Below are positions 685 to 35,785 of a stretch of 40,746 nt of DNA, in pieces (positions within the stretch are counted from its first letter, which is position 1; every line of letters starts with the position of its first letter). The notes beneath the pieces were generated by a model. It was not told the DNA's origin, did not search any database, and saw only the letters and a list, made by a program, of their open reading frames with translations. This stretch comes from Candidatus Eisenbacteria bacterium. Lineage in GTDB: Bacteria; Eisenbacteria; RBG-16-71-46. The translations under genes and the position numbers were made by a program. The DNA lies in assembly GCA_013140805.1 (NCBI GenBank), contig JABFRW010000094.1, positions 1 to 40,746 of the forward strand, read 5' to 3'.

Positions 685-3525
685 ATGTTCCCTCGAACAT
701 CCTCCAGTAACGGCCCCGACCGCGTTTCGGGCGGTTCCGCGAGTCCCGATCCCGCGCCCGGCGACCTTTTCGCGCCTCATTCGCTCCAGTCGGATCACTC
801 GACTGAACCGGAGTCGGCAGCGGATGTGGGTCTCTCGGACGCAGGCGATCCGCCCGCCGCATCACGGCGCGCTCGCGCCGCATCGAGTGGCGTCCGGCGC
901 TCCAGGCCCGAAGAGTCGCCTTTCATGGCGCAGTATCACGCCGCCAAGTCCCAGCATCCGGACGCCTTTCTGTTCTTTCGAATGGGCGACTTCTACGAGC
1001 TGTTCTTCGAAGACGCGGTCGAGGCGGCGCGACTGTTGGGCCTGACCCTGACTTCACGCAACAAGCAGGATCCTAATCCGATCCCGATGTGCGGGATGCC
1101 GTGGCATCAGCGAGACGGCTACGTCGCCCGGCTGCTCAGGCTTGATCGCAAGGTCGCCATCTGCGATCAGCTCGAGGAGTCGAGTCCGGGTCGCAAGCTG
1201 GTGCCGCGTGGAGTGACGGAAGTCCTGACGCCCGGCTCGGTGGTCGGAGAGGCATTCCTCGATCCGATCGCGAACAACTTCATTGCCGCGTTGTGGCCGG
1301 GTCCGGAGGGGATCGGGCTGTGCCTCGCCGACGCCTCGACTTCCGAGGTGCGTCTGGCCGAACTCACCTGGGAGGAATCCGCCGGGGCTCTCGCTTCGCT
1401 GCGAGTGTCCGAGTGGCTGCTCCCGGACGCGGCCGCCGTCCCGTCGGCGCTCGCCGAACGATTCGCCGCCTCGACCGCGGGACTTGCGGGAGCGCGGAGC
1501 ACGCTGGCGACCGGCGCCTATCTCGACGATTTCCGCGCGCTCGAACGCTGGAGAGACGCGGCTCGCGAGCTACTCGACTCCCTGTCGCTCGCGCGCGCCG
1601 CGGCCGCCGCCCTGCTGGCCTACCTCGACGTCGTGCAGGGCGGAACCGCACTGGTTCACGCGCGCGTCGAGAGCTGGCGGGCCGCCCGCACCCTTCGGTT
1701 CGATGCGGCGACGGCGCGTCATCTGGAGTTGTTCCAGCCGCAACCGGGCGGCGAAATCTCGCACACGTTGTGGCATCACCTGAACTTCGCCGTTACTCCG
1801 CTCGGCGCGCGGCGATTGCGAGGCTGGCTCGAACGCCCACTCGCCGAGAGAGCCGCCATCGAGGCGCGGCACGATGCGATCGCCGTGTGGATCTCGGAGG
1901 GCGTCACGCGAGCGGGGTTTCGTGAAGCTCTCAAGGGATTCCCGGATCTCGATCGGCTGGCGTCGCGCCTTGCGCTGGCGCGTTCGACCCCGCGCGATCT
2001 GGGTGCGCTTCGTGACGCGCTGGCGCGGCTGCCGCAGTTGTGCGCGGTGCTCGGAGAACTACGGGCTCCCGCCGTCGCCGCGATCCTGCCGGCACTGGCG
2101 GGAATTCCGTCGCTGCTCGACGATCTCAGTCGCGCGCTGGTCGACGATCCGCCGCCGCTTTCGCGGGACGGTGGAGTGATACGAGAGGGATTCGACGCGC
2201 ATCGGGATCAGGTGAGTGCACTGGCGCGTTCGGGCAAGCACTGGATCGCCGAGCTGGAGGCGTCGGAACGTGCTCGGACCGGCATTGCCACGCTCAGGAT
2301 CGGCTACAACCGAGTGTTCGGCTACTACCTCGAGGTCACGCGCCCGCATCTCGAGAGGGTGCCGGCGGACTACGAGCGACGCCAGACCCTGACGACCGCG
2401 GAGCGCTTCGTCACGCCCGAACTCAAGCACAAGGAGAGCGAAGTGCTCGGCGCCGAGGACAAGCTGCGCGCGCGCGAGCACGAGCTGTTCGTGGCGCTTC
2501 GCGATCGCGCAGCGGAGCACGTGGTGCGACTGCAGCGAGCGGCGGATGCACTGGCGGAGCTCGATGCGCTCAGCGGCCTCGCCGAGGCGGCAGCGCGCTT
2601 CGGCTGGACACGCCCCGCGATCGACGACTCGGACGTGCTGGAACTGATTGGTGCCCGACACCCGGTGGTCGAGCGCCTGCTGCCGCGTGGCGAATTCGTT
2701 CCGAACGACGTGCGGCTCGCGGGGGGTGAGCGTCAGATCCTGCTGCTCACCGGCCCCAACATGGGCGGCAAGAGCACCTATCTGCGCCAGACCGCCATGG
2801 CGGTGATCCTCGCGCAGGCCGGCTCCTACGTGCCGGTCGAACGCGCACGCATCGGAATCGTGGACCGCCTGTTCACGCGGGTCGGCGCGGCCGACCGACT
2901 CGGATCGGGACACAGCACCTTCATGGTCGAGATGCAGGAGACCGCAGACATCCTCCGCAACAGCACGCCGCGATCGCTGGTGTTGCTGGACGAGATCGGG
3001 CGCGGGACCGCGACCTACGACGGTCTGGCCCTCGCGTGGGCGGTGACCGAGCACCTGCACGCGGCGGACGGCCCACGGCCTCGCACGATCTTCGCGACCC
3101 ACTATCACGAGCTGACTCAGCTCTCGGATTCGCTCACACGACTTCGCAACGTCAACGTGACGGTCAAGGAGTGGGGCGACGACATCGTGTTCCTTCATCG
3201 CATCGCCGAGGGCTCGGCCGACCGCAGCTACGGAATCCACGTCGCGCAGCTGGCGGGGCTGCCGGCCCGCGTGATCGCGCGCGCGAAGCAGGTGCTGCAC
3301 GAGCTCGAGAGCGAGCGCACCGCGGAGCATCTGGGCGGAAGCATCACAACAGGTGGTGCGGAGGGCGGGAGGAGTGTGGATGGTGTCGTCGGGCTTCCGG
3401 CACGTGAGTTGGATCCGCGTCTCGAAGAATTGGATCGCCTCGTGCCGGATACGATGACTCCCATCGAGGCGCTTCAGAAGCTCATCGAGTGGAAGCGCCG
3501 AGGCGTTCCGCCCGCGCCGCGCTGA
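685..3525 (+). CDS. mutS: DNA mismatch repair protein MutS
   Basis: MutS recognises mispaired and looped bases and, with ATP, recruits MutL. From ATG 685 the protein has 946 residues. The mismatch-binding Phe-x-Glu is F103-Y104-E105 in the context GDFYELFF. The lever and clamp regions occupy the middle. The ATPase has a Walker A motif GPNMGGKST at about 690-698, and a Walker B region LLDEIGRGTATYDG with D769-E770, then the helix-turn-helix dimerisation tail. Family members are usually 850-880 residues; the excess is a Ser/Pro-rich N-terminal tail of about 75 residues before the conserved domain I, which starts near residue 78. ATG 685 is chosen because a promoter ends 10 bases upstream; ATG 925 would give the classical length but lacks any initiation signal. 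Identity is certain, the start is moderately sure. Confidence 0.97.
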   Translation: MFPRTSSSNGPDRVSGGSASPDPAPGDLFAPHSLQSDHSTEPESAADVGLSDAGDPPAASRRARAASSGVRRSRPEESPFMAQYHAAKSQHPDAFLFFRMGDFYELFFEDAVEAARLLGLTLTSRNKQDPNPIPMCGMPWHQRDGYVARLLRLDRKVAICDQLEESSPGRKLVPRGVTEVLTPGSVVGEAFLDPIANNFIAALWPGPEGIGLCLADASTSEVRLAELTWEESAGALASLRVSEWLLPDAAAVPSALAERFAASTAGLAGARSTLATGAYLDDFRALERWRDAARELLDSLSLARAAAAALLAYLDVVQGGTALVHARVESWRAARTLRFDAATARHLELFQPQPGGEISHTLWHHLNFAVTPLGARRLRGWLERPLAERAAIEARHDAIAVWISEGVTRAGFREALKGFPDLDRLASRLALARSTPRDLGALRDALARLPQLCAVLGELRAPAVAAILPALAGIPSLLDDLSRALVDDPPPLSRDGGVIREGFDAHRDQVSALARSGKHWIAELEASERARTGIATLRIGYNRVFGYYLEVTRPHLERVPADYERRQTLTTAERFVTPELKHKESEVLGAEDKLRAREHELFVALRDRAAEHVVRLQRAADALAELDALSGLAEAAARFGWTRPAIDDSDVLELIGARHPVVERLLPRGEFVPNDVRLAGGERQILLLTGPNMGGKSTYLRQTAMAVILAQAGSYVPVERARIGIVDRLFTRVGAADRLGSGHSTFMVEMQETADILRNSTPRSLVLLDEIGRGTATYDGLALAWAVTEHLHAADGPRPRTIFATHYHELTQLSDSLTRLRNVNVTVKEWGDDIVFLHRIAEGSADRSYGIHVAQLAGLPARVIARAKQVLHELESERTAEHLGGSITTGGAEGGRSVDGVVGLPARELDPRLEELDRLVPDTMTPIEALQKLIEWKRRGVPPAPR

Positions 3526-4480: not shown

Positions 4481-4484
<4 letters not shown>
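4128..4484 (-). CDS. Four-helix holin-like membrane protein
   Basis: A 118-residue, very hydrophobic protein with four predicted membrane segments at about 4-22, 30-55, 58-80 and 88-110, with a short basic C-terminal tail. The patterns LVLAFVNTLVKPILFVLTLP and ITLGLFLFVLNAACLWIASL match the widespread 'phage holin family / mycobacterial 4TMS holin-like' family (PF04020 type), which despite the name is a chromosomal housekeeping-like membrane protein of unknown role. The ATG overlaps the TGA of the metH/metF fusion by four bases (ATGA), and a GGAGGG ribosome site lies about 7 bases upstream inside that gene, so it is translationally coupled. There is no sign of phage genes nearby. Confidence 0.85.
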
Positions 4485-6334
<1,850 letters not shown>

Positions 6335-6342
6335 GGAGCGCG

Positions 6343-6372
6343 AATGTATCCGCCACGTCATTCGGCGAGCAA
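6343..6372 (-). promoter_or_regulatory. Promoter of metH/metF fusion, leaderless
   Basis: On the minus strand TTGCTC (6367-6372), an 18-base spacer and TACATT (6343-6348). The -10 ends 8 bases before ATG 6334, predicting transcription to start within about 2 bases of the start codon. It stands back to back with the promoter at 6382-6410. Confidence 0.5.
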
Positions 6373-6381
6373 GCGCATGCG

Positions 6382-6410
6382 TTGGCCGCGCACCCACCCG
6401 CTGCTATAGT
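6382..6410 (+). promoter_or_regulatory. Promoter of the S55 peptidase gene, leaderless
   Basis: TTGGCC (6382-6387), 17 bases, then TATAGT (6405-6410) preceded by TGC, an extended -10. The GTG start at 6419 lies 8 bases after the -10, so the mRNA should be leaderless. The gap between the two divergent -35 boxes is 9 bases. Confidence 0.65.
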
Positions 6411-6418
6411 TCCGGCCC

Positions 6419-8350
6419 GTGATCACACCCGGACTCCGCGCATCCCGCACTTCATCGGCTCTCCGTCCTGCAGGCGCCGCCGTGGCGCTGGCGGTGTTGT
6501 CCGCGTGGTTTGGATTCGCGAGCGCCGCTCCGGTGCCGATCCTCACCGCCGATCGACTCAAGGCCGGAATGAAGGCCCAGGTCCTCACGGTGTTCGTCGG
6601 CGAGCGTATCGACACGTTCAGTGCGGAGATCGTGGGCGTGATGTCCGGGGGGCGCGCGGAGGGCGATCAGATCGTGGCCCGAGCCACGGATCCACGCGCG
6701 ATTCGAAGCGGAATCGCGCAGGGGATGAGCGGCTCTCCGGTCTACGTCGACGGCAAGCTGATCGGAGCGCTCTCGGGCGGCTGGTCGTTCGTGCGCGAAC
6801 CCGTGTTCGTGATCACTCCGATCGCTGAGATGCTCGCGGTGCTGGATCAGCCGGAACACTCGAGTGCTTCCGGCACTTCGGGGCCCGCCGGGCTCGACCT
6901 GGGACTCGAGACGCACGAGCCGCGCTACCAGTATTTCCGCTGGAGCGAGGAATCAACGCTCTCGATTCCGGCTCCAGCTGCCCCCGAAACCAGCGGCCCG
7001 GGCGCGGCATTTCCCGCACTCGGGCTCTCGCGGCCGCTTGCGCTGCCGCTCGCCGCATCCGGCCTGCATCCCGGCTCACGAGCGATCGCGGCTGAGCTGC
7101 TCGCCCCGCTCGGGCTCGCACTCACTTCGACAGGGGGCGGTTCCGGGCGTGCCTCGTCCTCCGCGCCTCGCGCCGTCGCCGGAAAGCGTTCGGGGTCTGC
7201 GGCCTCGCAGGTCGCGACGATCGAACCGGGTGCCGCGGTCGCGGTCGATATCCTGCGTGGTGACCTGAATCTCTCGGCGATCGGAACGCTCACCTATCGA
7301 GATGGCGACCGTGTGCTGATCTTCGGTCACCCGTTGTTCCAGGCCGGCGAGGTCAAACTGCCGCTTTCGCGCGCCGAAATCACCACCATCATTCCGACCG
7401 ATGTGTCGTCGTTCAAGCTCGGACGTCCGGGCGAGCCGATCGGCACCGCGACTCAGGATCGTCGGGCCGCGATGGCCGGCCGGCTGGGTCCGGTACCGCA
7501 CCTGCTGCCGATCACGGTGTCGCTCATCGAGGCCAGCCGTCGCCGGAACTTTCATTTCGAGAGCATCGAAGATCGCACTCTGCTGCCGAGCATGGTCGGA
7601 ATTGCCGCCTTCAACAGTCTGATGGAGTCGGGCGGCGCGGGCGCCGGTCAGACCCTGCGCTGGACTCTGCGTGCGAGCGGCCCGGGCCGTGAGCTGACGA
7701 TGTCCGACGTGGTTGCGGGTGAGGCTCCCGGTGCCGAAATGTTGAACGCGATCAGCGGACCGCTGCGATTCCTGGCCGGCAACCCTTACGAACGCCTCGC
7801 GCTCGACAGCATCCAGGTCGCGATCGAGATCGAGCCGCGACGTGAACAGTGGGTGCTGCGCGGCGTGCGACTCGCAACCGCAGCGGTGCGGCCTGGCGGA
7901 ATCGCCCACGTGGCGTGTGAGGTCGAGTCGTGGCGCGGGGGTCGTCGCACCGTCATGCTCCAGGTGCCGGTTCCGCACGAAGTGCCGGCAGGTCGCTACT
8001 CGTTGTTCGTGGGCGGCGCAGCGGAACTGATGCGGATGGAAGCTGCGCGTCTGCCGGGACGGTATCGCCCGACAACGCTCGACGACGCGATCGACCGCTT
8101 CAATCACTGGCGCTCGAGCGACGCGCTGAGAGCGGTGCTGATCGCGCGCGCCCCCGAGGTCACGCGATCAGGCATCGACTATCCGGAGCTGCCGACCTCG
8201 GCGCTCGCGCTGCTCGCGCCGGGGACCGAGGCCGGTGACGACATTCGACGTGGCGATCGGCTGCTGTTGTCCGAGACCCGGTTCGCGCTGGAAGGCGTGG
8301 TGCGGGGTGAAGTGATGCTCGAGTTCGTCGTCGACGAGGATGCGCCGTGA
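6419..8350 (+). CDS. Secreted SpoIVB-type (S55) peptidase domain protein
   Basis: 643 residues, GTG start. An Arg-containing N-region and hydrophobic stretch (about 17-36, ending FGFASA) form a signal peptide. Residues 45-140 hold the S55 core: LKAGMKAQVLTVFVGERIDT and the serine motif GMSGSP with S104 in the position of the chymotrypsin-fold nucleophile. A low-complexity Ser/Ala/Gly linker (about 145-265) separates it from a second conserved block with GDRVLIFGHPLF, where H304 is the likely general base, and SSFKLGRPGEPIGTATQDR. The C-terminal half is beta-rich and unassigned. The founding member cuts the pro-sigma-K processing regulator in Bacillus sporulation, but related proteins occur in non-sporulating bacteria with unknown substrates. 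Nothing here suggests sporulation. It begins a tight four-gene unit. Confidence 0.82.
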   Translation: MITPGLRASRTSSALRPAGAAVALAVLSAWFGFASAAPVPILTADRLKAGMKAQVLTVFVGERIDTFSAEIVGVMSGGRAEGDQIVARATDPRAIRSGIAQGMSGSPVYVDGKLIGALSGGWSFVREPVFVITPIAEMLAVLDQPEHSSASGTSGPAGLDLGLETHEPRYQYFRWSEESTLSIPAPAAPETSGPGAAFPALGLSRPLALPLAASGLHPGSRAIAAELLAPLGLALTSTGGGSGRASSSAPRAVAGKRSGSAASQVATIEPGAAVAVDILRGDLNLSAIGTLTYRDGDRVLIFGHPLFQAGEVKLPLSRAEITTIIPTDVSSFKLGRPGEPIGTATQDRRAAMAGRLGPVPHLLPITVSLIEASRRRNFHFESIEDRTLLPSMVGIAAFNSLMESGGAGAGQTLRWTLRASGPGRELTMSDVVAGEAPGAEMLNAISGPLRFLAGNPYERLALDSIQVAIEIEPRREQWVLRGVRLATAAVRPGGIAHVACEVESWRGGRRTVMLQVPVPHEVPAGRYSLFVGGAAELMRMEAARLPGRYRPTTLDDAIDRFNHWRSSDALRAVLIARAPEVTRSGIDYPELPTSALALLAPGTEAGDDIRRGDRLLLSETRFALEGVVRGEVMLEFVVDEDAP

Positions 8351-8373
8351 ACCCGCGGTCCCAAGGAGGAGTC

Positions 8374-10500
8374 GTGAAGCACTGGTGTTCGGCGATCGCG
8401 ATCATGCTCGTGACCTGCTCGGTCGCAGGAGCGGCCGAGACGCAATTGTGGATTCACGATGGCCCCGCCGACCATGCCGCGGCCGAAACTCGCGGCGTGG
8501 TGGTGCGACCTGATGGGGTGATCGCGCTCGGGCCGGCGGCGCGTTCGCACGCCGCCGACAGCACGACCGTGATCTGGGCGCTGCTGCCGCTTCCGGACGG
8601 GTCGGTCGCGATCGCCGGGGACCGCGGGCGAATCGATCGCTGGACCTCGGCGGGAGGCGTTCGACCCTGGGTGCGGCTCGCGGCGGGACAGGTGCTCTCA
8701 CTGGCGACAGACGGGGACGGCTTGATCGCGGGCACCGGGCCGGACGGTCGCATCTACCGGGTGTCGGCTGGTGGCGACACCTCGCTGCTGGTCAAGACCG
8801 GCGAACGCTATGTGTGGGCACTGGCGTCGGCGGGCAAGGGTGCCTGGTATGCCGCAACCGGTTCGCGCGGCCGGTTGCTCAAGGTCCAGCAGGGCGCGAG
8901 TCGCGTGATGCTCGACTCGGAGGAGAGTCACCTCATCTCATGCATCTCGGACGGTCGCGGTGGCGCCTACGCGGGCGGAGACTCGCGTGGTGGACTGGTT
9001 CACGTGAGCGCCGGCGGTGAGGCGCGGACATTGTTCGACGCCTCCGAAGAAGAGATTCGAGCGCTGGCACTCGGCGCGGACGGCTCCGTCTACGCTGCAG
9101 CGCTGAGTGCTTCCGCGGTGGCGCTGACGGGTGCCGCGGTGGACGACGACGAGAGCGACGGCCCGGCCGGAAGTGCCGCGCCGGTGCGTGCGGCCGTGAG
9201 CGGCGGGCGCGCAACGGTCTATCGCATCATTCCCGACAGCGTCGTGACCACCCTCTGGACTTCCCCTCAGCCGTTGCTCTACGCGCTTGCGTCCTACCGC
9301 GGTGCGCTGGCACCCGAGGGCGGGGTACTCGCGGCCAGCGGCAATCGGGCCGGCGTGTGGCTGGTGAATCCCAATGGCGGCGCGAGCCAGTGGATGGCCA
9401 TGCCGCAGGGACAGGTCACGGCACTCGCGGTCACGCCGCGCGGCGAGATCTTTGCGGCGACTTCGAATCCCGGCGCCCTGTGGCAGCTGGGACCGGAACG
9501 AGCCGCGCGTGGCGAGCTGATCTCGGCGCCGCTCGATGCGCGCCGTATTGCGGCGTTCGGCCGGGTTGCGTGGCAAGGGCGTGGTCGCGGCGCGAAGCTC
9601 GACACCCGCAGCGGCAACACCGACAAGCCCGATACGACCTGGAGCGCCTGGAAATCGGTCGGAGCGGACGATCGTTCCGCTTCGGCACCCGCGCGCTATC
9701 TGCAGTACCGCCTCGAGCTCAGCGGCGATGCCGAGGTGAGTGCGATCGAGGCGTTCTATCGCGAACGGAATCTCGCTCCGCGCGTGGACGAGCTCGCGGT
9801 TGCGCCCCAGGGGCTCGGATTTCGTGAAGGCGAGCTGCAGCCGCGCAGCGAGCCTGTGACGCAGAGTCTTCCGGGCGGTCAGCGCGTCGAGTATTCGATC
9901 TCGAATCAGCCGACGAGACCGCTGCGGGGCTTGCCCGCTTTCGCGCGTGGACTGCGCACGCTGCAATGGCGCGGCAATGATCCCAATGGCGACGCGCTGC
10001 GGTACAGCGTCGAGTTGCGTCGCGAGGGAGAGGATGGCTGGATCAAGCTTGGCGAAGACTACGAAGCCACTTCGTTCACGTGGGACACGCAGTCGATTCC
10101 CGACGGACGCTATCGCGTCCGGGTGACCGCGACGGACCGAGCCGGCAATGCAGTCGGCGAGGAGCGGTCCGGGAGCGCCACCAGCGAGCCCTTCACGGTC
10201 GACAACACCGCACCTCGACTCACCGCGTTCGAGGCCGGCGCCGACGGGAGCGGCATCACGATCTCGGGAGCGGGGGAGGACGGCGAGAGCGTGCTGTGGC
10301 GCGTCGAGGTCTCGCTGGACGATGCCGACTGGCGTCCGGTGACTCCCGAGAGCGGACTTGCCGACAGTCGCCAGGTTCGGTTTCGCGCACGCCTGAGCGA
10401 TGTCGAGCGCGGGCTCCATTCCGTGGCGGTGAGGGTGGTCGATCTGGCCGGGAACACGGCATCGCGCTCCCTTCCGGTGACGGTGGCCGTGCGGCGCTGA
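8374..10500 (+). CDS. Secreted beta-propeller protein with Ig/Fn3-like C-terminus
   Basis: 708 residues. The GTG at 8374 is chosen because AAGGAGG lies 4 bases upstream and a signal peptide starts there (KHWCSAIAIMLVTCSVAGA); the frame could otherwise start at 8347, overlapping the S55 stop. Residues ~25-400 carry repeated short blades such as IAGTGPDGRIYRV, YAATGSRGRLLKV, YAGGDSRGGLVHV and FAATSNPGALWQL, typical of a six- to eight-bladed propeller. Residues ~450-708 contain two or more beta-sandwich units (WRGNDPNGDALRYSVELR, DGRYRVRVTATDRAGN, GLHSVAVRVVDLAGN), as in extracellular Fn3/Ig-like repeats. No catalytic motif is visible; binding of a partner or polymer is a guess. Co-transcription with the protease is likely from the 23-base gap. 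Confidence 0.75.
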   Translation: MKHWCSAIAIMLVTCSVAGAAETQLWIHDGPADHAAAETRGVVVRPDGVIALGPAARSHAADSTTVIWALLPLPDGSVAIAGDRGRIDRWTSAGGVRPWVRLAAGQVLSLATDGDGLIAGTGPDGRIYRVSAGGDTSLLVKTGERYVWALASAGKGAWYAATGSRGRLLKVQQGASRVMLDSEESHLISCISDGRGGAYAGGDSRGGLVHVSAGGEARTLFDASEEEIRALALGADGSVYAAALSASAVALTGAAVDDDESDGPAGSAAPVRAAVSGGRATVYRIIPDSVVTTLWTSPQPLLYALASYRGALAPEGGVLAASGNRAGVWLVNPNGGASQWMAMPQGQVTALAVTPRGEIFAATSNPGALWQLGPERAARGELISAPLDARRIAAFGRVAWQGRGRGAKLDTRSGNTDKPDTTWSAWKSVGADDRSASAPARYLQYRLELSGDAEVSAIEAFYRERNLAPRVDELAVAPQGLGFREGELQPRSEPVTQSLPGGQRVEYSISNQPTRPLRGLPAFARGLRTLQWRGNDPNGDALRYSVELRREGEDGWIKLGEDYEATSFTWDTQSIPDGRYRVRVTATDRAGNAVGEERSGSATSEPFTVDNTAPRLTAFEAGADGSGITISGAGEDGESVLWRVEVSLDDADWRPVTPESGLADSRQVRFRARLSDVERGLHSVAVRVVDLAGNTASRSLPVTVAVRR

Positions 10501-10507
10501 CGCAAGC

Positions 10508-11854
10508 GTGAGCGGATCCGCACCTCAACTGCGAGTCATTCGCGGCGGACGCGCCGCGGTCGCCGACTCGGCGCCCGAAGATCCACGGCCCGCGCTCGAG
10601 CTGCTCGGACTCGGAACCGCGCTGGTGTTCGTGTGCGTGCTGCTTGCGCGCCTGCCATCGTGGCGTGCCGAACTCGGTACGTTCCAGGCACTCGCGGCCG
10701 TCGCCTTCGTGGCGTGGGGTGCGGCGCTGTGGCGTGCGCAGCCCGCCGCCGCCATTCGACACGCAGGCCTGCTGGTGCTCGGCATCGCAGTGGCCGCCCG
10801 TCTGGCGCTGTTGCCGGTCGCGCCCACCCTGTCGGACGATGTCTATCGCTACGTTTGGGAGGGCAAGGTCACCGCGCAGGGGGGCGATCCATATCGGCAG
10901 CCTCCGCTCGATCCGGCGCTCGCGTCGTTGCGGGATCGAGACATCCATCCGCGCGTCAATCACCCGGAGCTGGCCGCGATCTATCCGCCGCTCGCCATGG
11001 CGGGGTTCGCGCTCGTCGCTCGGGTCTCGGCCACGGTCGCGGCGTTCAAGCTGTGGATCGTGCTTTGGGACATTGCGCTGTGCGCCGCGCTCCTGTGGTG
11101 GTGCCGAGTTCGCGGCGTGCCCGCGCTGGCGGCGATTGCGTATGCCTGGAATCCTCTGGTGCTGATCGAGTACGCGGGCACGGCGCACTACGATCCGATC
11201 GCGCTCCTGCCACTCGTGCTGGCGTTCGGCTGGACGCCGCGGCGTCCGATGGCGGCCGCGGTGGCGCTCGTGGTGGCCTCGCTCACGCGGCTCATGCCGA
11301 TCGTCGCCCTGCCATTTCTGTGGCGCGAATGGCCGTGGCGGGCACGGCTGCTGGCGGTGTGTGGGATCGGGGCGGGCGTGGCGCTCTACGTGAATCGCAG
11401 TCTTCAGGGTCCTTCGGGACTCGCCGCTTATGCACGGCACTGGCAGCACAACGAGGCATTGTTCACGTGCTTCGCATGGATACCACTCGATCCCGTGGCC
11501 GGGCGCGTCCTGGTCACGCTCGGCGTGGCGTCGATCGCCGCGTTTCAGTTCTTTCGCGTGCCGGATGTCGTGCGCACGTTTCGGCGCACGCTCGGCAGCA
11601 TGCTGTTGTTCGCACCGGTGGTTCAGCCCTGGTACCTCGGATGGGTGCTGGTGTTCGAACCGATTCAGACCTCGCGCTTCTGGCTGTTCCTGTCGTTCAC
11701 GGTCCTGGCGTCCTATGGTGTGTTTGCTCCGCCCGCCGCGGGGGGCGCATGGCATCCACCGCTCGGGGTACGGCTGGTCGAGTACGGGCTGCCGGTTCTC
11801 GCGGCGGCTCTGCTGGCGAAGTGGGATGCTCGAGGGCACGAACCGCGTGCGTGA
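10508..11854 (+). CDS. GT-C-type polyprenyl-phosphate sugar glycosyltransferase (membrane)
   Basis: 448 residues, GTG start 8 bases after the propeller stop, no clear ribosome site. After a ~30-residue cytoplasmic tail there are about ten hydrophobic helices. The first large loop has SDDVYRYVWEGKV followed by GGDPYRQPPLDP, the Asp-Asp containing loop typical of GT-C enzymes such as GT87 and alpha-1,6-mannosyltransferases. EYAGTAHYDP and VVQPWYLGW are further conserved-looking loops. Such enzymes transfer a sugar from a polyprenyl-phosphate donor on the outer face of the inner membrane. The acceptor is unknown; neighbours are exported proteins, so glycosylation of a glycan or envelope component is possible. 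The precise family is uncertain. Confidence 0.75.
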   Translation: MSGSAPQLRVIRGGRAAVADSAPEDPRPALELLGLGTALVFVCVLLARLPSWRAELGTFQALAAVAFVAWGAALWRAQPAAAIRHAGLLVLGIAVAARLALLPVAPTLSDDVYRYVWEGKVTAQGGDPYRQPPLDPALASLRDRDIHPRVNHPELAAIYPPLAMAGFALVARVSATVAAFKLWIVLWDIALCAALLWWCRVRGVPALAAIAYAWNPLVLIEYAGTAHYDPIALLPLVLAFGWTPRRPMAAAVALVVASLTRLMPIVALPFLWREWPWRARLLAVCGIGAGVALYVNRSLQGPSGLAAYARHWQHNEALFTCFAWIPLDPVAGRVLVTLGVASIAAFQFFRVPDVVRTFRRTLGSMLLFAPVVQPWYLGWVLVFEPIQTSRFWLFLSFTVLASYGVFAPPAAGGAWHPPLGVRLVEYGLPVLAAALLAKWDARGHEPRA

Positions 11855-11880
11855 TTCGTCTTCGAAGGTCGGAGGCCGCA

Positions 11881-13818
11881 ATGATCCGTGAGGTGGTCGA
11901 ACGGACGCGCGCAGTCGTCGACGGCTCACGAGCGCTCGAGGACGTCCGGGCGCTCGCGGGCTTTCATCGCGTTCAGGCGAGTCCGGGTTACAACGCGGCC
12001 GCCGACTGGCTGGCCGAGTCACTCGAGAGCGCGGGGCTGGTGCCGGAGATCACGACTGTGTCGGGCGACGGACGCAGCCGACATCTGGGTGCTCTGATGC
12101 CGGAGGGGTGGTCGTGCGAGTTCGCCGAGGCCTGGCTGGTCGACGCAACCGGGCACCGCGAGAAGTGGTGCGACTACGAAGCGCAGAAGCTCTCGCTGGT
12201 GCTGCGCAGCATCGCCGCGCAGGGGCGCTACCCGATCGTCGACGGCGATCGCGACGATGCGGCGGCCCCCGGCTCGGCACGCGGTGCGGTGGTCCTCACC
12301 GAGTCGGCTGTCCAGACTCAGCATGAGCGCTACGTGCAGGGTCAAGGCGCAGCCGGTCTGCTCGCGTTCGGACGTCGTCTCGAGCCGCCGGTGCGAACCA
12401 ACGACACCGATCTCGACGCAGTCGCCTACACCTCCTTCTGGTGGGACGAGCACTCGCCTCGCGGATGGGGCTTTGCGATCTCCCCGGCGCGTGGCCGCTC
12501 ACTGCGTTCGCGGCTCGCCGCCGGAGAGCGACTGTGGCTCGAGATCCACATCGTCGCCCGCTTCGAACCGATCGCGATTCCGCTGCTGTCGGCCGTGCTT
12601 CCCGGCGCGTCTCCCGAGGGCGGCGAGATTCTGATCGTTTCGCATCTGTGTCATCCGCAACCGTCTGCCAACGACAATGCCTCCGGCGCCGCCTCGAATC
12701 TGGAGACCGCCCGCTCGCTGCAGCGGCTGCGACAGTCGGGGGCGTTTCCGATGGGCACGCACGGGGTGCGTTTCCTGTGGGTGCCCGAGTTCACCGGCAC
12801 CTACGCGTGGCTCGCGACTCGGCCCGAGCGGAGTCGGCGCCTGATCGCCGGTCTCAATCTCGACATGGTCGGCGAGCGACAGAACGAGTGCGGCAGCGTG
12901 CTGCTGCTCGAACATCCTCCGTGCTTCGGAGCGTCGTTCGCCGAGGAACTTGTGGAGGCGGCGCGACGCCTCGCGGTCGATTGGATCGATTCGTTCTCGG
13001 GACCCGGCCACTATTCGCACGTGCGCATGGCCGAGGTGCCGTTCAGCGGTGGCAGCGATCACGCGGTGTTCAACCACCCCGCGATCGATGTCCCGTGCCC
13101 GCTGCTGATTCAGTGGCCGGACCGCTACTACCATTCGACGCTCGACACTCCGGACCGCTGTGATCCGAGCTCACTGGCGCACGCCGCTCGCACCGCGGCA
13201 ACCTTCGCGGCGGTCGCGTCCGACGGAGGGCCGGAGGCGCTCGATCGGATCGCCGAACTGGTGCGTCGCCCTGAACGTCGCGGTCGGCTGCGCCCGATCG
13301 ATCGGCCCGATGCGCGCGAGGAAGCGCGTCATGCGCTGCGCGAGGACTCGGTTGCCCGTAGCCTCGAGCGACTCGGCTGCGACGCGACCTCGATTCGAAA
13401 AGAGCTTCGGAGTTGCCTGACGGCGACCCGCGATCGAACCAACGCGAGCGATGCGCACGAGGCGTGGCGGGTGGTGGAGCGCGAGACCACTCGTCGGCGA
13501 CGCGGTGCCGGAATCGTCTTCGAGCGGCGTCTCGAGGCACCGCTTCACGATCAACGATTTCTGTTGCCGGGCTGGACCGAGCTTCCGGCCTTCGAGCGAG
13601 AGGCCTGGCTCGCAGATGAGGCGAGGACTCCGAACGCGCACCTGCATGCAGAGCTGGCCTGGATGGCGTGCGACGGTTTTCGCAACGTGGAGGAGATCGC
13701 GGATCTGGTGTGGCTCGAGACCGGACAACGCTCGGACGTATTCATCGAACGTTTCTTCGACCGCCTGGAGCGTCTCGAGCTGGCGCGTTCGCTCGACCCC
13801 TCGGAGCCGAAACGATGA
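11881..13818 (+). CDS. DUF4910/M28-like aminopeptidase with C-terminal winged-helix-like domain
   Basis: 645 residues from ATG 11881; GGAGG lies 6 bases upstream. The open frame extends much further upstream as noncoding shadow of the glycosyltransferase, so that extension is rejected. The M28-type di-zinc residues can be read in order: H255 and H258 in SHLCHP, D265 in NDNASG, the Glu in VPEFTGTYAWL, Asp in LNLDMVGE, and H418 in RYYHSTLDTPD. DUF4910/DUF2172 proteins are aminopeptidase-like and associated with polysaccharide or modified-peptide metabolism. Residues ~580-645 (LAWMACDGFRNVEEIADLVW) look like a small winged-helix or PqqD-like domain. No signal peptide, so it is probably cytoplasmic, unlike the first two genes of the unit. 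A strong hairpin follows the stop. Confidence 0.82.
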   Translation: MIREVVERTRAVVDGSRALEDVRALAGFHRVQASPGYNAAADWLAESLESAGLVPEITTVSGDGRSRHLGALMPEGWSCEFAEAWLVDATGHREKWCDYEAQKLSLVLRSIAAQGRYPIVDGDRDDAAAPGSARGAVVLTESAVQTQHERYVQGQGAAGLLAFGRRLEPPVRTNDTDLDAVAYTSFWWDEHSPRGWGFAISPARGRSLRSRLAAGERLWLEIHIVARFEPIAIPLLSAVLPGASPEGGEILIVSHLCHPQPSANDNASGAASNLETARSLQRLRQSGAFPMGTHGVRFLWVPEFTGTYAWLATRPERSRRLIAGLNLDMVGERQNECGSVLLLEHPPCFGASFAEELVEAARRLAVDWIDSFSGPGHYSHVRMAEVPFSGGSDHAVFNHPAIDVPCPLLIQWPDRYYHSTLDTPDRCDPSSLAHAARTAATFAAVASDGGPEALDRIAELVRRPERRGRLRPIDRPDAREEARHALREDSVARSLERLGCDATSIRKELRSCLTATRDRTNASDAHEAWRVVERETTRRRRGAGIVFERRLEAPLHDQRFLLPGWTELPAFEREAWLADEARTPNAHLHAELAWMACDGFRNVEEIADLVWLETGQRSDVFIERFFDRLERLELARSLDPSEPKR

Positions 13819-13849
13819 TCGGAGCCCGCGAGGCGCGCGGGCTCCGATC
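13817..13849. terminator. Bidirectional intrinsic terminator
   Basis: A perfect 14-bp stem (13817-13830 with 13836-13849) closes a 5-base loop AGGCG. It begins inside the TGA of the aminopeptidase gene and lies between two convergent genes. Downstream sequence is only moderately T-rich (GGTTGTTTGG on the plus side, ATCGTTTCGG on the minus side), so it probably serves both strands. Confidence 0.75.
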
Positions 13850-13872
13850 GGTTGTTTGGGCGTTCTCAGGTG

Positions 13873-14595
13873 CTAGTGGTGAGTCGAATCCGCGAGAGTC
13901 GCCGCCGGCTTGACGCTCGAAGCAGGAGGAGCGACGCCTTCGAAGCTGCTCAGCGGCGCGAGCCGGGCCTTCTTGATGAGAGCCTTCTTGCCGGGGTTGC
14001 GCCCGCCGCCACCCGCTTGCGGCAGCTTGGCGTCGGATGCAAAGGCGGCGATCTTGTCGACCGCGTCCATGCCCTTGATCACCTGGCCGAACACCGTATA
14101 GCCGCCTGCGTCGAGCGACGGGAGCTTGGTGAGGTCGATGAAGAACTGGCTTCCGCTCGACGCCCGGGTCGGGTTGACCTGATCGCCCTGGCGAGCGGTC
14201 GCCACGGCTCCACGCACGTGTGGCAGGCCGATCTCGGCCTCGACGGTGTAGCCGGGACCACCCTGTCCGTCATCGGCCGGGTTCGTATTCTTCGAATTGG
14301 GGTCGCCACCCTGAATCATGAAGTTCGCGATCACGCGATGAAAGGACACGCCGTCATAGAATCCCTGCTTCACCAGCTTGGCGAAGTTCGCGCTGGTCTT
14401 CGGCGCCTTGACCGGGTCCAGCTTGATGACGATGTCGCCGAGCGTCGTCTCGAGCACGACGGCCTGCGCTTCGGACGGAGTGGTCGCGGCGGTCGTCGCC
14501 GGGGCGGTCGACGCCGGCGCCACGGTGATAGAAACGAGCAGCGCAGCAGCGATGCAGAGCGTCGTGACACCCGTCAAGGGGTTGCGTCCGAGCAT
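13873..14595 (-). CDS. Exported cyclophilin-type peptidyl-prolyl isomerase
   Basis: 240 residues. An N-terminal signal segment (about 8-30, TTLCIAAALLVSITVAPAST) is followed by an Ala/Thr linker and a cyclophilin domain at ~45-205. Catalytic-site signatures are present: FYDGVSFHRVIANFMIQGGD with the active Arg in FHRV, GSQFFIDL, and VFGQVIKGMDAVDKI. It would catalyse prolyl cis-trans isomerisation in the periplasm. Bacterial cyclophilins often lack the Trp of the cyclosporin site; the expected position here has YTVFG. The C-terminal ~35 residues are Lys/Arg-rich then Ala/Pro-rich and not part of the fold. The ATG has a strong GAGGAGGT site 4 bases upstream. A weak minus-strand -10-like TAGACT at 14680-14685 would give an ~80-base leader. 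Confidence 0.93.
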   Translation of the reverse strand: MLGRNPLTGVTTLCIAAALLVSITVAPASTAPATTAATTPSEAQAVVLETTLGDIVIKLDPVKAPKTSANFAKLVKQGFYDGVSFHRVIANFMIQGGDPNSKNTNPADDGQGGPGYTVEAEIGLPHVRGAVATARQGDQVNPTRASSGSQFFIDLTKLPSLDAGGYTVFGQVIKGMDAVDKIAAFASDAKLPQAGGGGRNPGKKALIKKARLAPLSSFEGVAPPASSVKPAATLADSTHH

Positions 14596-14688
14596 GGTGA
14601 CCTCCTCAGAGAGTCGAATCAGAGACGCGGGGGCGATGAAGAGCCCCGCGTGGGTACGTCGGTCCGGGAGCGATGACGCAGTCTAGCA

Positions 14689-14717
14689 TTGGGGGAGTGC
14701 GAAGCGATTGCTATACT
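14689..14717 (+). promoter_or_regulatory. Orphan promoter antisense to pgeF
   Basis: TTGGGG (14689-14694), a 17-base spacer and an extended -10 TGCTATACT (hexamer 14712-14717). It points into the 3' end of pgeF on the opposite strand, with no convincing sense gene downstream; the ATG at 14741 opens only a 53-codon frame lying opposite pgeF. The 37 bases from 14689 match the mutS promoter region from 646 at 27 positions without gaps, including the 11-mer TGCGAAGCGAT three bases before the -10 in both. Confidence 0.5.
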
Positions 14718-14754
14718 CCGCGGCCGTTCGTCGAACCAGAATGTCACCGAAGCG

Positions 14755-15513
14755 TCAGGCGCGTGTCGCCATCGCCACGACACCCCACTGGCGTCCGGTG
14801 ACTCCCCGGTCCCGACGGTGCGAGAAGTACCGGCCATTGCTGCACGAGGTGCACTCTCCGACGTCCTGGATGGCGGCGGGGTCGACCCCGACCGCTTCGA
14901 GCTGAAGGCGGGCGGCACCGGGGACGTCGAGGCGCAGGCTTTCACCTCGATGGGTCACGCAAGGCGCCGGAAAGTGAGCCGCCACTTCCGGGCCCACTTC
15001 ATAACAACACGGGCGATTGGCGGGGCCAAAATGGACATGAACGTCGCCGGCACTCAGGCCCGTTGCGTCGCACAGCGCTTCGAGCGCACGTCGCGGGATG
15101 TGGGCGGCGACGCCGCGCCAGCCGGCGTGAGCGACGGCCACGCCGCGGTGGGTCGTGAACAGAATGGGAAGGCAGTCAGCACCAGACACGGCAAGGGCGA
15201 GACCCGGGTGAGTGGTGACGAGCGCATCACAGTCCGGATGCAGGCCGGGCGAGTTCACTCGGGTGACGACGGCGCCATGGATCTGGCCGGCGGTTGCGAG
15301 TCGATCGATCGACAAGTCGAGAGCGGCAAGGACACGGGTGCGATTGGCTGCGACGAAGGAAGCGTCGTCCGCTGTCGATCGGCCGAGATTGAGTGAATCG
15401 TAGGGCGGAGGGCTCACACCGCCGAGGCGGGTCGTGAACGCGATCCGCGCGAGATGAGGATCATCGAGGTGCCGCCACAGCGGCGGTGTTCCGTCCGAAT
15501 CGAGTTTCCACAT
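14755..15513 (-). CDS. pgeF: PgeF/YfiH laccase-domain purine nucleoside / peptidoglycan-editing enzyme
   Basis: 252 residues, the usual size. Signatures in order: FTTRLGGVS, TAGQIHGAVV, SGADCLPILF, HAGWRG and GPANRPCCYEVG, with the metal-ligand His of QIHG, Cys of GADC and His of HAGWRG all present. Family members have been described as multicopper-like phenol oxidases, as zinc-dependent purine nucleoside phosphorylase/adenosine deaminases, and in E. coli as an enzyme correcting wrong amino acids in peptidoglycan precursors. The sequence cannot choose between these. ATG 15513 sits 9 bases after a minus-strand -10 box. The gene diverges from the SurA-like gene with 60 bases between starts. It ends 159 bases before the cyclophilin start. 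Confidence 0.93.
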   Translation of the reverse strand: MWKLDSDGTPPLWRHLDDPHLARIAFTTRLGGVSPPPYDSLNLGRSTADDASFVAANRTRVLAALDLSIDRLATAGQIHGAVVTRVNSPGLHPDCDALVTTHPGLALAVSGADCLPILFTTHRGVAVAHAGWRGVAAHIPRRALEALCDATGLSAGDVHVHFGPANRPCCYEVGPEVAAHFPAPCVTHRGESLRLDVPGAARLQLEAVGVDPAAIQDVGECTSCSNGRYFSHRRDRGVTGRQWGVVAMATRA

Positions 15514-15522
15514 GGGTCGCGC

Positions 15523-15551
15523 ACGCTAGGCGCGCGACGTTGCGAGGTCAA
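15523..15551 (-). promoter_or_regulatory. pgeF promoter, near-leaderless
   Basis: On the minus strand TTGACC (15546-15551), 17 bases and TAGCGT (15523-15528). The -10 ends 9 bases before ATG 15513, predicting a leader of about 3 bases. No Shine-Dalgarno site is visible. Confidence 0.5.
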
Positions 15552-15573
15552 GATCCGTGAGGCGACGAGCATC

Positions 15574-18423
15574 ATGATGCAGCGAAGCGTCGAACGAATG
15601 ATCGGGAGTGCCGTGCTTGCCCTGATGATGGCGGTCGGAACGGTGGTCGGGACTGCGCAGCACTCGGGAGCTCAGACGAGCGGAGGAGTGCCTCGCAATG
15701 CGCCCGGTGTCAGCCGTGCGATCGCGCGGGTGGGCACGATGGAGATCACCGAGGGCGAACTCGACCGACGATCCGACGAAGCACTGGCTCAGATGCGGGC
15801 GCGCAGTGGCGCCGACATTCTGGCAAGTCAGCGCCTCACGTTCCGCCGGCAGATTCTGGAGTCGCTCATCTGGCAACGACTCGTAACGCTCGAGGCGCGG
15901 CGAACCGGCCGCGAGCCTGCCGTACTCGCCGACGAGCTGCGCCGCAATGCCACGCCGAACCGCGATCAGGTGCGCAAGGACATCACACGGCGCGCCACCC
16001 TGGCTTCGATCTCCTACCTGCCGCTTCGCGTCAGCGACTTCACGGAGGCAGTGCCTCCGCCCTCGGAGCTCGAAGTACTGGACTGGTATCGGCGGAATCT
16101 CGACGCCTTTCCGCGTCCGGCCGAGAGCCGACTCAGCTTGATCGTGATTGCGAATCCTCCATTGTCGCAATCGCGCGCGATGCGGGTGGACCAGCGGCGC
16201 GAGTGGGAAGCGCTCATGCAGCGCCGCGCCGACAGTCTGCTCGCGGCGATTCGTGCCGGGACCCGCTTCGAGGACGCCGCGGTCGGGTTTGGCGGGGTGC
16301 AGCACGTGGGAATTGCGCGCGGCGGCCGGATGCCCTCCGAGTGGCGCGGCTCGGACTCGGAACGGAACAGCCTGTTCGAAGCGGCTCCCGGCGTCGTCTC
16401 GCCGCGATCCTTCGAGTGGTCGCCCGGCCGCGTGATCGTCCGTGTCGATGCGCATCTGCCGATTCATCCGGCGCCGATCGAGGCGGTCGCGACGGACATT
16501 CGCCAGCGCATCCTGGCGGAGCGGCCGCGTCGGGGAGGTGAGTCCGATCTTCGCGCGCTCTATGCGCAACTCGGAGATAGCCTCATCAACTCGGGTTCGC
16601 CCGTGCGCTACGCGGTTGCCGACACCGGCGCGATTCGGACCAGCGAACCGACCGCAGCAGAGCTCGACCGCTTCTATCGTCTGCACCTTGCCGACTACTC
16701 GAGCTTCGATGCACAGAAAGGCACCGTGGTCTCGGTGCCGTTCGCTGAAGTGAGAGAAGATGTGCGAGTGCGAATGCGGCGCGAACGTGCGCTCGCGAGT
16801 ACGCGTCAGGTGGCGGACCGCATCGCCCAGGCGTGGAAAAGTGGCCGCCGGGATCGTGAAGCCGAAGGGCTGGCGAGCGCCGTTCGCGATCTCGGAGTGG
16901 TACCCACCGGCACGGCCGTCGATACCGGACGTGTCGGACGGATGCTCACCGACACGCTCGCGCGTCGCAACGGATTACCCGGCACCCGTGTGATCGAGGA
17001 CGCTCGCGGGTACGTCGCTGTGTGGATCGGCGAGCCGGTCTCCAGGCATCGGCTGACCTACGAGCAGGCGCGCCCCATGCTCGCGACTCGATTCAACGAA
17101 CGCGATGCGGCTGCGGAAGAACGCGAAGCGCTGGAACTCTACCGCCGTGAGCCGGGTCGCTTCGCGACCGGCAGGCGGGTCCACTTTGCTCGGCTGATCG
17201 TTGCACCGGCGGTCGCCACCGACATCCCTCTCAAACGCAGCGAGGTGGAGGGATTCTACCGTCGCAACATCGCGGACTACTCCGCGCCGCCAACCGCGCG
17301 CGCTGCCCACATCCTGGTGGCCATGGCCGAGCCGGGCGCGGAGGCTGAGCGCGCGGCACGACAGAAAGCCGAACGGCTGGTCGCGGCTGCGAAGGGTGGA
17401 GCCGATTGGTCCACGCTGGTGCGTGAGAACAGCGACGACGAGACCACGCGTGATGCGAATGGTGAAGTCGGCACCGTCATGCCCGGATCGCTGCAGACCG
17501 AATTCGAGGCGGCGCTGTTCCAGATGGAGGCCGGAGAGATCCGTGGCCCGGTGCGATCGAGCGCCGGATTCCACGTCATCCGTTGCATCGAGAACCTTCC
17601 GCCCGAGCCGGTGCCGCTCAGGTACTGTTACGTCAACGTGGCCTACGATCTCGCGCAGCAGCGCGCCGAAGCGGCCGCGAAGGCGCGAGCCGACAGCTTG
17701 TTCCGGGTCATTCGCACTCCGGCGGATGCGCAGGCGGCCTCGAAACGGTTCAACTACCTCATCTTCAGGAACGATCAGGTGATCGGAGACCGGCGCGTCG
17801 TCAAAGGGCTGGAGGAATTCTTCGACCTCATCGATCGCACACCCGCGGGCCGAATCGTGCCGAAGGTTCAGAGGTATCGGGGGCTCGGCTATGCGATCGC
17901 CTGGGTCGACAGCCTGAGCGAAACACGGATCGAAGACTGGAGCACCGCCCGAACCAAGGCGCTCGAGATGCTTCGGCGAGATCGAGCCGTTCGCACCATC
18001 GCGGCCCGCCGCGCCGCGCTGGATTCGCTCGCGCGGTCCGGCTGGTCGCTCGACAGTCTTGGTGCATTGCGCGGTGGGCTCGAAACGCGATCACTCGAAG
18101 GGGAGGGCCGCGCGTTGATTCAGCTCGGTGGAGCAAGTGTGGTCGACTCGTTGATCTTCGGCAGCGCGGTGAGACCGGCTGCGCTCGATCCGGGCGACAT
18201 TTCCGACTGGGTGACGTTTCCGGAAGGCATCGCGCGCATCCGGCTGGACGCCCGCGTGCTTCCAGATGCGGTCATCGTCGACGATCGGATCGAGCGCGCC
18301 TGGAAGGCCCGGGCTGAGCGGCAGCTGTTCGATCAGTTCGAAAGCCTCAAGCAGCGTTACCCGGTGAACATCCTCGATTTCGACCTCTCGCAGGTGGCGG
18401 TTCCGATGCCGTCGGAGCGTTGA
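15574..18423 (+). CDS. Large SurA/PrsA-like parvulin foldase
   Basis: 949 residues from ATG 15574; ATG 15577 and 15598 are alternatives, and the frame also extends back to 15454 opposite pgeF, which I reject. The N-terminus is a signal peptide (hydrophobic ~10-27, ending near GAQ). Residues ~45-150 resemble the SurA N-domain (VGTMEITEGELDRRSDEALA, LESLIWQRLVTLEARR). A divergent parvulin-like segment lies at ~185-300. The clear PpiC-type domain is at ~570-675: ARAAHILVAMAE, WSTLVRENSDD, GEVGTVMPGS, FEAALFQMEAGEIRGPVRSS, GFHVIRC. A further ~270 residues after it are helical and again end in SurA-like DFDLSQV. Typical SurA has about 430 residues, so this is double size. It probably folds outer-membrane proteins in the periplasm. 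Confidence 0.85.
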   Translation: MMQRSVERMIGSAVLALMMAVGTVVGTAQHSGAQTSGGVPRNAPGVSRAIARVGTMEITEGELDRRSDEALAQMRARSGADILASQRLTFRRQILESLIWQRLVTLEARRTGREPAVLADELRRNATPNRDQVRKDITRRATLASISYLPLRVSDFTEAVPPPSELEVLDWYRRNLDAFPRPAESRLSLIVIANPPLSQSRAMRVDQRREWEALMQRRADSLLAAIRAGTRFEDAAVGFGGVQHVGIARGGRMPSEWRGSDSERNSLFEAAPGVVSPRSFEWSPGRVIVRVDAHLPIHPAPIEAVATDIRQRILAERPRRGGESDLRALYAQLGDSLINSGSPVRYAVADTGAIRTSEPTAAELDRFYRLHLADYSSFDAQKGTVVSVPFAEVREDVRVRMRRERALASTRQVADRIAQAWKSGRRDREAEGLASAVRDLGVVPTGTAVDTGRVGRMLTDTLARRNGLPGTRVIEDARGYVAVWIGEPVSRHRLTYEQARPMLATRFNERDAAAEEREALELYRREPGRFATGRRVHFARLIVAPAVATDIPLKRSEVEGFYRRNIADYSAPPTARAAHILVAMAEPGAEAERAARQKAERLVAAAKGGADWSTLVRENSDDETTRDANGEVGTVMPGSLQTEFEAALFQMEAGEIRGPVRSSAGFHVIRCIENLPPEPVPLRYCYVNVAYDLAQQRAEAAAKARADSLFRVIRTPADAQAASKRFNYLIFRNDQVIGDRRVVKGLEEFFDLIDRTPAGRIVPKVQRYRGLGYAIAWVDSLSETRIEDWSTARTKALEMLRRDRAVRTIAARRAALDSLARSGWSLDSLGALRGGLETRSLEGEGRALIQLGGASVVDSLIFGSAVRPAALDPGDISDWVTFPEGIARIRLDARVLPDAVIVDDRIERAWKARAERQLFDQFESLKQRYPVNILDFDLSQVAVPMPSER

Positions 18424-35655: not shown

Positions 35656-35785
35656 GGCGTTTGGGATTCCGTCGACGGTTGTGCGCGGAGCCGGGCACCG
35701 GGAGGCTCATGGAGTCAACCGTGGGAGATAACGGGATTGGCCGATGCGTGTCCAGTTCGAGAACACCGCCGCGCGCGGAATGAGC

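Follow-up and report, generated by a model that had tools for sequence, protein, structure and literature searches.

A half-swapped S55-type protease kept together with a propeller protein: a candidate envelope system of outer-membrane bacteria

We analysed a 40,746-nucleotide stretch of DNA from Candidatus Eisenbacteria (the whole of contig JABFRW010000094.1, hereafter the window) and in it a block of four plus-strand genes, the first two of which encode an S55-type serine protease (P0001) and a propeller protein (P0002). A preliminary description, made from the letters of the window alone, had reported four plus-strand genes with gaps of 23, 7 and 26 base pairs (bp) between P0001, P0002, P0003 and P0004, and the open reading frame (ORF) coordinates agree with this. 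The features of the block, all on the plus strand, are as follows, with protein lengths in amino acids (aa).

6382-6410, plus: promoter-like site TTGGCC-17-TATAGT, 9 of 12 consensus positions, with the GTG of P0001 8 bp downstream
6419-8350, plus: S55 gene, P0001, 643 aa, GTG start (ORF and Pfam S55)
6527-6862, plus: Ser half of P0001, residues 37-148, with GMSGSP and Ser104; aligns with the C-terminal barrel in SpoIVB (9lnf) and in HtrA/Deg proteases
7226-7573, plus: His half of P0001, residues 270-385, GTLTYRDGDRVLIFGHP with His304, Lys333 and Asp347; by profile matches the N-terminal half of the protease domain in SpoIVB
8363-8369, plus: Shine-Dalgarno-like AAGGAGG ahead of P0002 (sequence)
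8374-10500, plus: propeller/Ig gene, P0002, 708 aa (ORF, Pfam, profile and model)
10508-11854, plus: GT87-like membrane glycosyltransferase gene, P0003 (ORF, Pfam and family members)
11881-13818, plus: M28/DUF4910 aminopeptidase-like gene, P0004 (ORF and Pfam); C-terminal tail kept in the family, unclassified
13816-13850, plus: terminator-like hairpin with a 15-bp stem, between convergent genes (stem search and folding)

A promoter had been placed just before the first gene, and the site at 6382-6410 lies there and is the sole promoter-like site within 6300-14000, where shuffled sequences average 0.4. A strong terminator had also been described at the end of the block. The 15-bp stem and the fold z-score of the hairpin (-4.66) bear this out but its T-tract is weak (GTTGTTTGGG), and the whole stretch has 4 terminator-like sites versus a shuffle mean of 2.5.

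The proteins were assigned using Pfam, profiles and structure models. P0001 scored 53 bits against the S55 family (PF05580, cut-off 25), covering only profile positions 107-191 of 210. It had been called an exported SpoIVB-type protease; the S55 membership stands, but P0001 is not a SpoIVB, as it has no PDZ match (no PDZ family of Pfam at E<=0.1) and its halves are swapped, and it scored 51.3 bits against the SpoIVB equivalog TIGR02860, which has a cut-off of 305.25. P0002 matched the Ig-like family Big_13 at 38 bits, and profile and structure model placed a propeller in front of Ig-like C-terminal domains, as had been read earlier. In Foldseek, the propeller model obtained its lowest E-values against periplasmic sensor propellers such as BT4663, though at a whole-length template modelling (TM) score of about 0.33. 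The membrane glycosyltransferase (GT) of the preliminary description, P0003, reached 17.5 bits against GT87 (PF09594), under the cut-off of 25, and 9 of its 11 family members matched GT87 at E<=0.01 (best 1.1e-12). P0004, described as an aminopeptidase, matched M28 (PF04389, 52.3 bits versus a cut-off of 21.3) and DUF4910 (53.7 bits), as did 14 of 14 family members, in all of which H255, H258, D265, E303, D328, H394 and H418 are invariant. These are positions of the metal-ligand type, among which we presume the zinc ligands to lie. The C-terminal tail of P0004, put down earlier as winged-helix-like, is conserved within the family and matched no Pfam model. Signal-peptide-like N-termini, read by eye, suggest that P0001 and P0002 are exported; no membrane anchor other than the signal peptide was seen in P0001, and no signal peptide is visible in P0004.

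Gene neighbourhoods were compared in a relative set of 59 genomes that includes the window's own (G000). Matches to S55 were found in 44 genomes, to the propeller in 44, to the GT in 27 and to M28 in 25. S55 and propeller occurred together in 43 of the 59 and were adjacent, on the same strand and in the same order in 42 of these 43, the call for G042 resting on a piece of the S55 gene at a contig end. The one genome to depart from this was G058, from another lineage. Both genes were called in 33 loci (the simple gene caller overlooked the S55 gene of L066), always on the same strand and with a gap of <=100 bp in 29. The GT gene stood next to the propeller in 12 of the 27 GT-matching genomes. 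It was not its neighbour in 13, including three in which no propeller was matched, and 2 were undecided at contig breaks. Outside the window's family the GT was found beside the pair in one genome of the same order (G020), and M28 in no searched genome; strong M28 matches in class relatives stand 0.8 Mb off (G032) or on a separate contig (G026). Within the family, the full set of four is present in order in 8 of 14 loci, and L067 can be added as a ninth, with the last three genes on a contig that begins inside the propeller gene. The stretch after the propeller was readable in 13 family loci and led to the GT in 9 and straight to M28 in 4. The GT was unmatched in 6 of 20 family genomes, all of which retain the pair. 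Beyond the M28 gene, a PCC-domain protein follows in 9 family loci (L033-L039, L067, L068) and not in the window, and in two class relatives an M28 homologue lies elsewhere (L070:5412-7864, L071:5349-7112) and is followed by a second shared gene, thioesterase-like by Pfam in L070.

These counts bear on the suggestion that the four genes make up one surface-glycan or glycopeptide system, in which the GT87-like enzyme would glycosylate an exported product, the propeller would bind it and the two peptidases would trim it. The tight co-directional spacing, the one promoter-like site and one terminator-like hairpin, and the 8 of 14 complete family loci together with L067 are what such a system would show. 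The GT, however, has no match in 6 of 20 family genomes in which the pair remains, M28 is never beside the pair outside the family and the GT there only in G020, and the M28 protein shows no visible signal peptide. Moreover, the block has mutS (925-3525) on one side and mutL (20024-21901) on the other, and the S55-propeller pair comes after mutS in further class members too, which argues that it is not part of a glycan cluster. We therefore rejected the four-gene glycan system as a conserved unit, since GT and M28 do not stay beside the pair in relatives, and consider a shared glycan function very unlikely. The conserved neighbourhood that had been proposed as a check was thus borne out for the widely kept S55-propeller pair and failed for GT and M28, which are not neighbours in most relatives. 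The functional unit looks like the first gene pair, and the GT87-like and M28 genes look like local add-ons that need not share its function, although in the window's Eisenbacteria family they are probably in the same transcript as the pair.

The order of the two halves of its protease domain sets P0001 apart from SpoIVB. P0001 has GMSGSP (Ser104) first and GTLTYRDGDRVLIFGHP (His304) 200 residues later, and in SpoIVB the order is reversed, with RDSAAGVGTLTF...GALGH first and GMSGSP last. A variable linker separates the two halves in the P0001 family, whose members match the S55 profile from about position 104 onward only, as compared to about 2-210 for canonical SpoIVB. Ser preceded His in 20 of the 20 loci used for half-against-half alignment, in G348, and in 72 of the best 80 loci of a scan of named genomes described below, with 8 unresolved by the motif search.

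The Ser half matched the C-half of SpoIVB with an hhalign E of 4.4e-20 and the SpoIVB structure 9lnf in the PDB with a profile E of 1e-12. The AlphaFold model of P0001 had a mean predicted local distance difference test (pLDDT) score of 84.7, and 9lnf was the only PDB chain under E 0.001 for it using Foldseek (3.9e-4). Structure alignment with VIA placed P0001 residues 39-148 on 9lnf 312-426 (Z 7.0, root mean square deviation 3.3, 108 residues) and the Ser half on HtrA-type C-terminal barrels (Z up to 8.3, about 100 residues); these alignments covered the Ser barrel only (model 38-148). The His half matched the N-half of SpoIVB with a score of 28.1 (E 6e-4), or 32.6 (E 9.5e-5) in the reverse direction, compared to a maximum of 20.3 in 100 column shuffles, and gave no match to the C-half of SpoIVB. 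When the natural-order profile was aligned to a doubled SpoIVB it scored 153.85 in an alignment of 203 columns that spans the junction (template 107-330 of 438), versus 140.7 with a single copy, and 0 of 200 His-half shuffles reached 153.85. The half order of P0001 is thus probably a circular permutation of the S55/SpoIVB domain, by a modest margin, and the permuted halves would form one fold. For these comparisons alignment A1 held 29 of 36 and A2 26 of 36 S55-cluster ORFs, and A4 held 10 of 12 other-lineage loci, with L088 (no His-motif match) and L091 (no ORF found) dropped. Half against half, hhalign was given 59 permuted sequences and 39 of the 42 canonical ones; a test with the halves reordered used 59 and 42.

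Ser104 (GMSGSP) and His304 (G-x-x-GH) are invariant in 39 of 39 sequences, and Asp282, Lys333 and Asp347 are each kept in 38 of 39. At the alignment position of SpoIVB Asp363 (column 91), Asp is found in 5 of 39, and at that of SpoIVB Thr393 (column 119) there is Ala in 24, Ser in 15 and Thr in none of the 39. In the available part of the SpoIVB crystal paper, Asp363 is placed about 24 A from His236 and Thr393 is proposed instead (PMC12502668). At the level of residue conservation the family supports the doubt on Asp363 as a catalytic residue, but it keeps no Thr either. Asp347 appears to be the first candidate for the acid because its spacing from His304, 43 residues, is close to that of His57 and Asp102 in chymotrypsin, and because in the profile alignment it falls on the Asn of the SpoIVB motif N[TS]xxG, which is kept in 39 of 39 canonical sequences. 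The same columns could suggest that the S55 protein is a catalytically dead scaffold in a structural envelope complex, its permuted barrels only binding peptides or lipids. Asp in just 5 of 39 at the Asp363 column, Ala or Ser at the Thr393 column and the variable linker between the halves would suit a dead protein, but Ser104 and His304 never vary within their GMSG and GH motifs, 38 of the 39 sequences keep Asp347 and as many keep Asp282, and the part of the crystal paper cited above itself doubts that Asp363 is catalytic. We regard a dead scaffold as unlikely. With neither Asp363 nor Thr393 kept, the family is a natural test of the third catalytic residue in S55 enzymes.

At least 592 relatives of P0001 were found in the scan of named genomes, the best match being VBOY01000018.1 (L165), also from Candidatus Eisenbacteria. 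The best 80 of these at least 592 relatives were used as a named-locus set, and as they were chosen for their similarity to an alignment in which propeller-paired members abound, the pairing rate in this set is biased upwards. Titles among the best 80 include Eisenbacteria, WOR-3, Zixibacteria, Gemmatimonadetes, Acidobacteria, Krumholzibacteriia, Planctomycetes, Latescibacterota, Aminicenantes, KSB1, BRC1, Poribacteria, Armatimonadetes, Opitutales, Myxococcales, Chrysiogenales, others and one Actinomycetota metagenome-assembled genome (L221). Cultured organisms with the pair include Singulisphaera acidiphila DSM 18658 (L201) and Acidobacteriaceae bacterium TAA 166 (L243). The propeller was directly downstream (gap <=300 bp) in 62 of the 80 loci, fused in 4, at 625 and 1232 bp in 2 and absent in 12, 5 of which have <1.1 kb of DNA downstream; among the 70 with >1.5 kb downstream it was present in 63 (60 adjacent, 1 fused, 2 further off). 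The four fused ORFs (L186, 1431 aa from stop to stop; L204, 1344 aa; L221, 1514 aa; L232, 1371 aa) have the S55 part first and the propeller part starting at about residue 710-810. Their mutual identity is only 30-44% over best segments, suggesting either an old fusion or several separate ones. Two further suspected fusions, G114 (1361-aa ORF) and G071 (1216-aa ORF), were not counted, as the S55 motif proved to lie in other ORFs, of 613 and 689 aa.

Pairing was also assessed in genomes outside the window's class. Here S55 genomes are those with a half-match at E<=0.001, some of which is below the Pfam cut-off, and the Ser-before-His order was read in sequence only for fetched members. The propeller was found at E<=1e-20 in 43 of 54 such genomes, 2 of which (G063, G211) rest on partial propeller matches, and 38 of the 43 propellers lie directly downstream of S55. 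In contrast, 0 of 16 genomes lacking S55 had the propeller at this threshold; these controls are 16 of 26 S55-lacking genomes, with G059, the one that has no Omp85, among those left out. One S55 and one propeller place was counted per genome, and in G145 the second-best propeller place was taken, being beside the S55 gene. A scan of viruses confirmed 1 of 11 candidate stretches, with a 95-residue match in IMG/VR. A universal third partner gene was sought in 100 loci (L145-L244) and none was found, the best clusters comprising 7 loci each and being lineage-specific (riboflavin genes, Sua5, FlgI and others). The riboflavin genes follow the pair in Latescibacterota/Gemmatimonadota loci L168, L174, L178, L183, L193, L235 and L241, with RibD in all 7 and RibE and RibBA in most.

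A link to the outer membrane emerged from a contrast set of 46 genomes of the phylum of G098, which is presumably Bacillota because the SpoIVB gene of G098 lies between Spo0A-like and RecN-like genes. Half-match S55 was present in 10 of the 46, 8 of which also have canonical SpoIVB, and Omp85 in 11, namely the 10 S55 genomes plus G358. Half-match S55 therefore occurred in 10 of 11 Omp85-positive versus 0 of 35 Omp85-negative genomes (Fisher p 2.7e-9 if the genomes are independent). In 7 of the 10 Bacillota-type genomes, Omp85 was located on the strand of the S55 match, 2-9 kb further downstream. Omp85 is the next gene in L151 and the second in L147. TamB is the next gene in L145, L149, L150, L152 and L153, and in L154, outside the G098-phylum sample, TamB comes next and then Omp85. 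A protein that combines phosphodiester glycosidase (NAGPA) and AMIN domains is encoded just upstream of S55 in L150 by Pfam and in L148, L149 and L152 by sequence cluster. In Veillonella, Vpar_0521, which has a SpoIVB domain, was detected in the outer-membrane fraction and named as a target for study, according to the part of Poppleton 2017 that was available (PMC5491611), by whose account it was earlier noted in Antunes 2016. The accessible portion of the latter (PMC5007114) has a protein annotated as a membrane-associated protease among the unclear conserved proteins of a diderm Firmicutes locus that is absent from monoderms. Vpar_0521 would be an orthologue of the Bacillota-type half-match S55 members, and the nearby Vpar_0519 (DUF2233) may be the same NAGPA-type protein.

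The window's own locus is not TamB/BamA-adjacent. TamB and Omp85 were looked for at 33814-40744 of the window and not found; a tRNA synthetase lies there and, at 35861-40744 on the minus strand, a protein of 1627 aa that has an OmpA domain at its C-terminus besides DUF11/SdrD_B stretches, and whose gene reaches the contig end. The block is followed at 13873-18423 by genes for a cyclophilin, a laccase-like protein and a PpiC/SurA-like protein of 941-989 aa, and a SurA-type protein is found upstream of the pair in L161. Divergent from the S55 gene, at 4481-6397 on the minus strand, Pfam identifies a fused homocysteine S-methyltransferase and methylenetetrahydrofolate reductase. An apparent second S55 ORF in L032 (4350-6050) and a 1190-aa ORF in L040 are probably antisense shadows of the methylenetetrahydrofolate reductase gene produced by the simple gene caller, and were set aside.

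Our best reading is that an exported serine protease and its propeller act in envelope-protein maturation or quality control, to which we give a probability of roughly 0.5. P0001 would be an exported serine protease in which a Ser barrel is followed by a His barrel and then a beta-rich C-terminal region, and P0002 would be a partner dedicated to it that probably binds substrate or keeps the protease in position. The pair would most likely mature or police envelope proteins in outer-membrane bacteria, and may work like HtrA/DegP-type proteases near the TamB/BamA pathway. The pairing, the fusions, the half order, the invariant Ser and His and the Omp85 co-occurrence in the 46 Bacillota-type genomes were all obtained by computation. 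The single fold of the permuted halves, export, proteolytic activity, physical contact between the two proteins, the class of substrate and co-transcription are predictions. The protease could alternatively be a signalling enzyme like SpoIVB that cuts an anti-sigma factor or a membrane sensor, with the propeller as the ligand sensor. Its kinship with SpoIVB, the Foldseek likeness of the propeller to sensor propellers such as BT4663 and a GAF/GGDEF gene downstream of the pair in 10 class loci point that way, but P0001 has no PDZ match and no anchor seen beyond the signal peptide, the pair has no constant regulator neighbour, and the neighbours in the Bacillota-type genomes are TamB and Omp85. 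We find signalling quite unlikely.

Several results weigh against an envelope protease-propeller system with a permuted protease. The permutation score stands out by little, the best of the 200 shuffles reaching 151.9, just 2 below 153.85, and the halves re-set to SpoIVB order scoring 140.9, within the shuffles (median 141.2, maximum 148.5). The first hhalign of the His half, made with little-diverse alignments, gave an E of only 0.028, hmmsearch of the His half against the PDB gave nothing at E<=10, and a VIA Z of 7-8 is in the range that the tool itself calls middling or unremarkable. The half-match S55 of Bacillota-type genomes comes without the propeller (0 of 10), suggesting that its role in those genomes does not require one. 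The pair has no third gene that comes after it in every locus, and the window's block lies between mutS and mutL. Outside G098's phylum there was no contrast, with Omp85 in 54 of 54 S55 genomes versus 25 of 26 controls, these being the first 26 S55-lacking genomes in handle order. The fused locus L221 comes, unless mislabelled, from a genome titled Actinomycetota, a phylum in which an outer membrane of this kind is not usual, and the genomes in all of these counts are not phylogenetically independent.

A broader history is conceivable, and we put it forward only tentatively, at somewhat less than an even chance. The pair would be an ancient envelope machine of outer-membrane bacteria, a permuted trypsin-fold protease that is paired or fused with a propeller and uses either a Ser-His dyad or an acid moved to a new position (Asp347 or Asp282), and it would be one that was once coupled to TamB-BamA and was lost with the outer membrane as Firmicutes became monoderm. 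SpoIVB would then be a PDZ-bearing offshoot of ordinary order, or the reverse. The family connects the outer membrane with a sporulation protease that is itself poorly understood, and could serve as an additional marker for the passage from diderm to monoderm Bacillota. A protease and a propeller that remain neighbours across many phyla, and in some loci share one ORF, offer a strong lead on an envelope function that has yet to be studied, among phyla whose outer-membrane biogenesis is scarcely understood.

The preliminary description knew of no described system, and for the S55-propeller pair this holds within the open-licence full texts searched, where no description of it as a system was found. 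S55 had already been reported to be widely detected in acidobacterial genomes, as a family count, in the part of PMC8841776 available, and many of the best 80 named loci are acidobacterial. One Veillonella member was also known, Vpar_0521 of Veillonella parvula, which resembles P0001 in having a SpoIVB-type domain, is conserved in diderm Firmicutes and occurs in the outer-membrane fraction (PMC5491611, in part). Unlike P0001, it would have no propeller partner, as no propeller gene was found in the 10 Bacillota-type genomes, its presumed kind. The available portions of these two papers and of PMC5007114 assign no function to these members and mention neither a permutation nor a propeller partner; PMC5491611 there names no relatives in other phyla, and PMC8841776 gives no architecture.

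The P0001 family shares with SpoIVB (MEROPS S55, 9lnf) a homologous Ser half and the GMSGSP and GTxT...GH motifs, but has no PDZ, has its halves swapped, is spread over many phyla and has a propeller partner. It is also like HtrA, DegP, DegQ and DegS, exported envelope serine proteases of the PA clan to which its Ser barrel aligns (VIA Z 7-8.3). HtrA/Deg proteases have the order His-Asp-Ser and carry PDZ domains, whereas in the P0001 family the Ser motif precedes the His motif and no PDZ was matched. P0002, exported by the reading of its N-terminus, resembles periplasmic sensor propellers such as BT4663 as an exported propeller scaffold, which BamB is too, and differs from BT4663 in having Ig-like C-terminal domains and no kinase.

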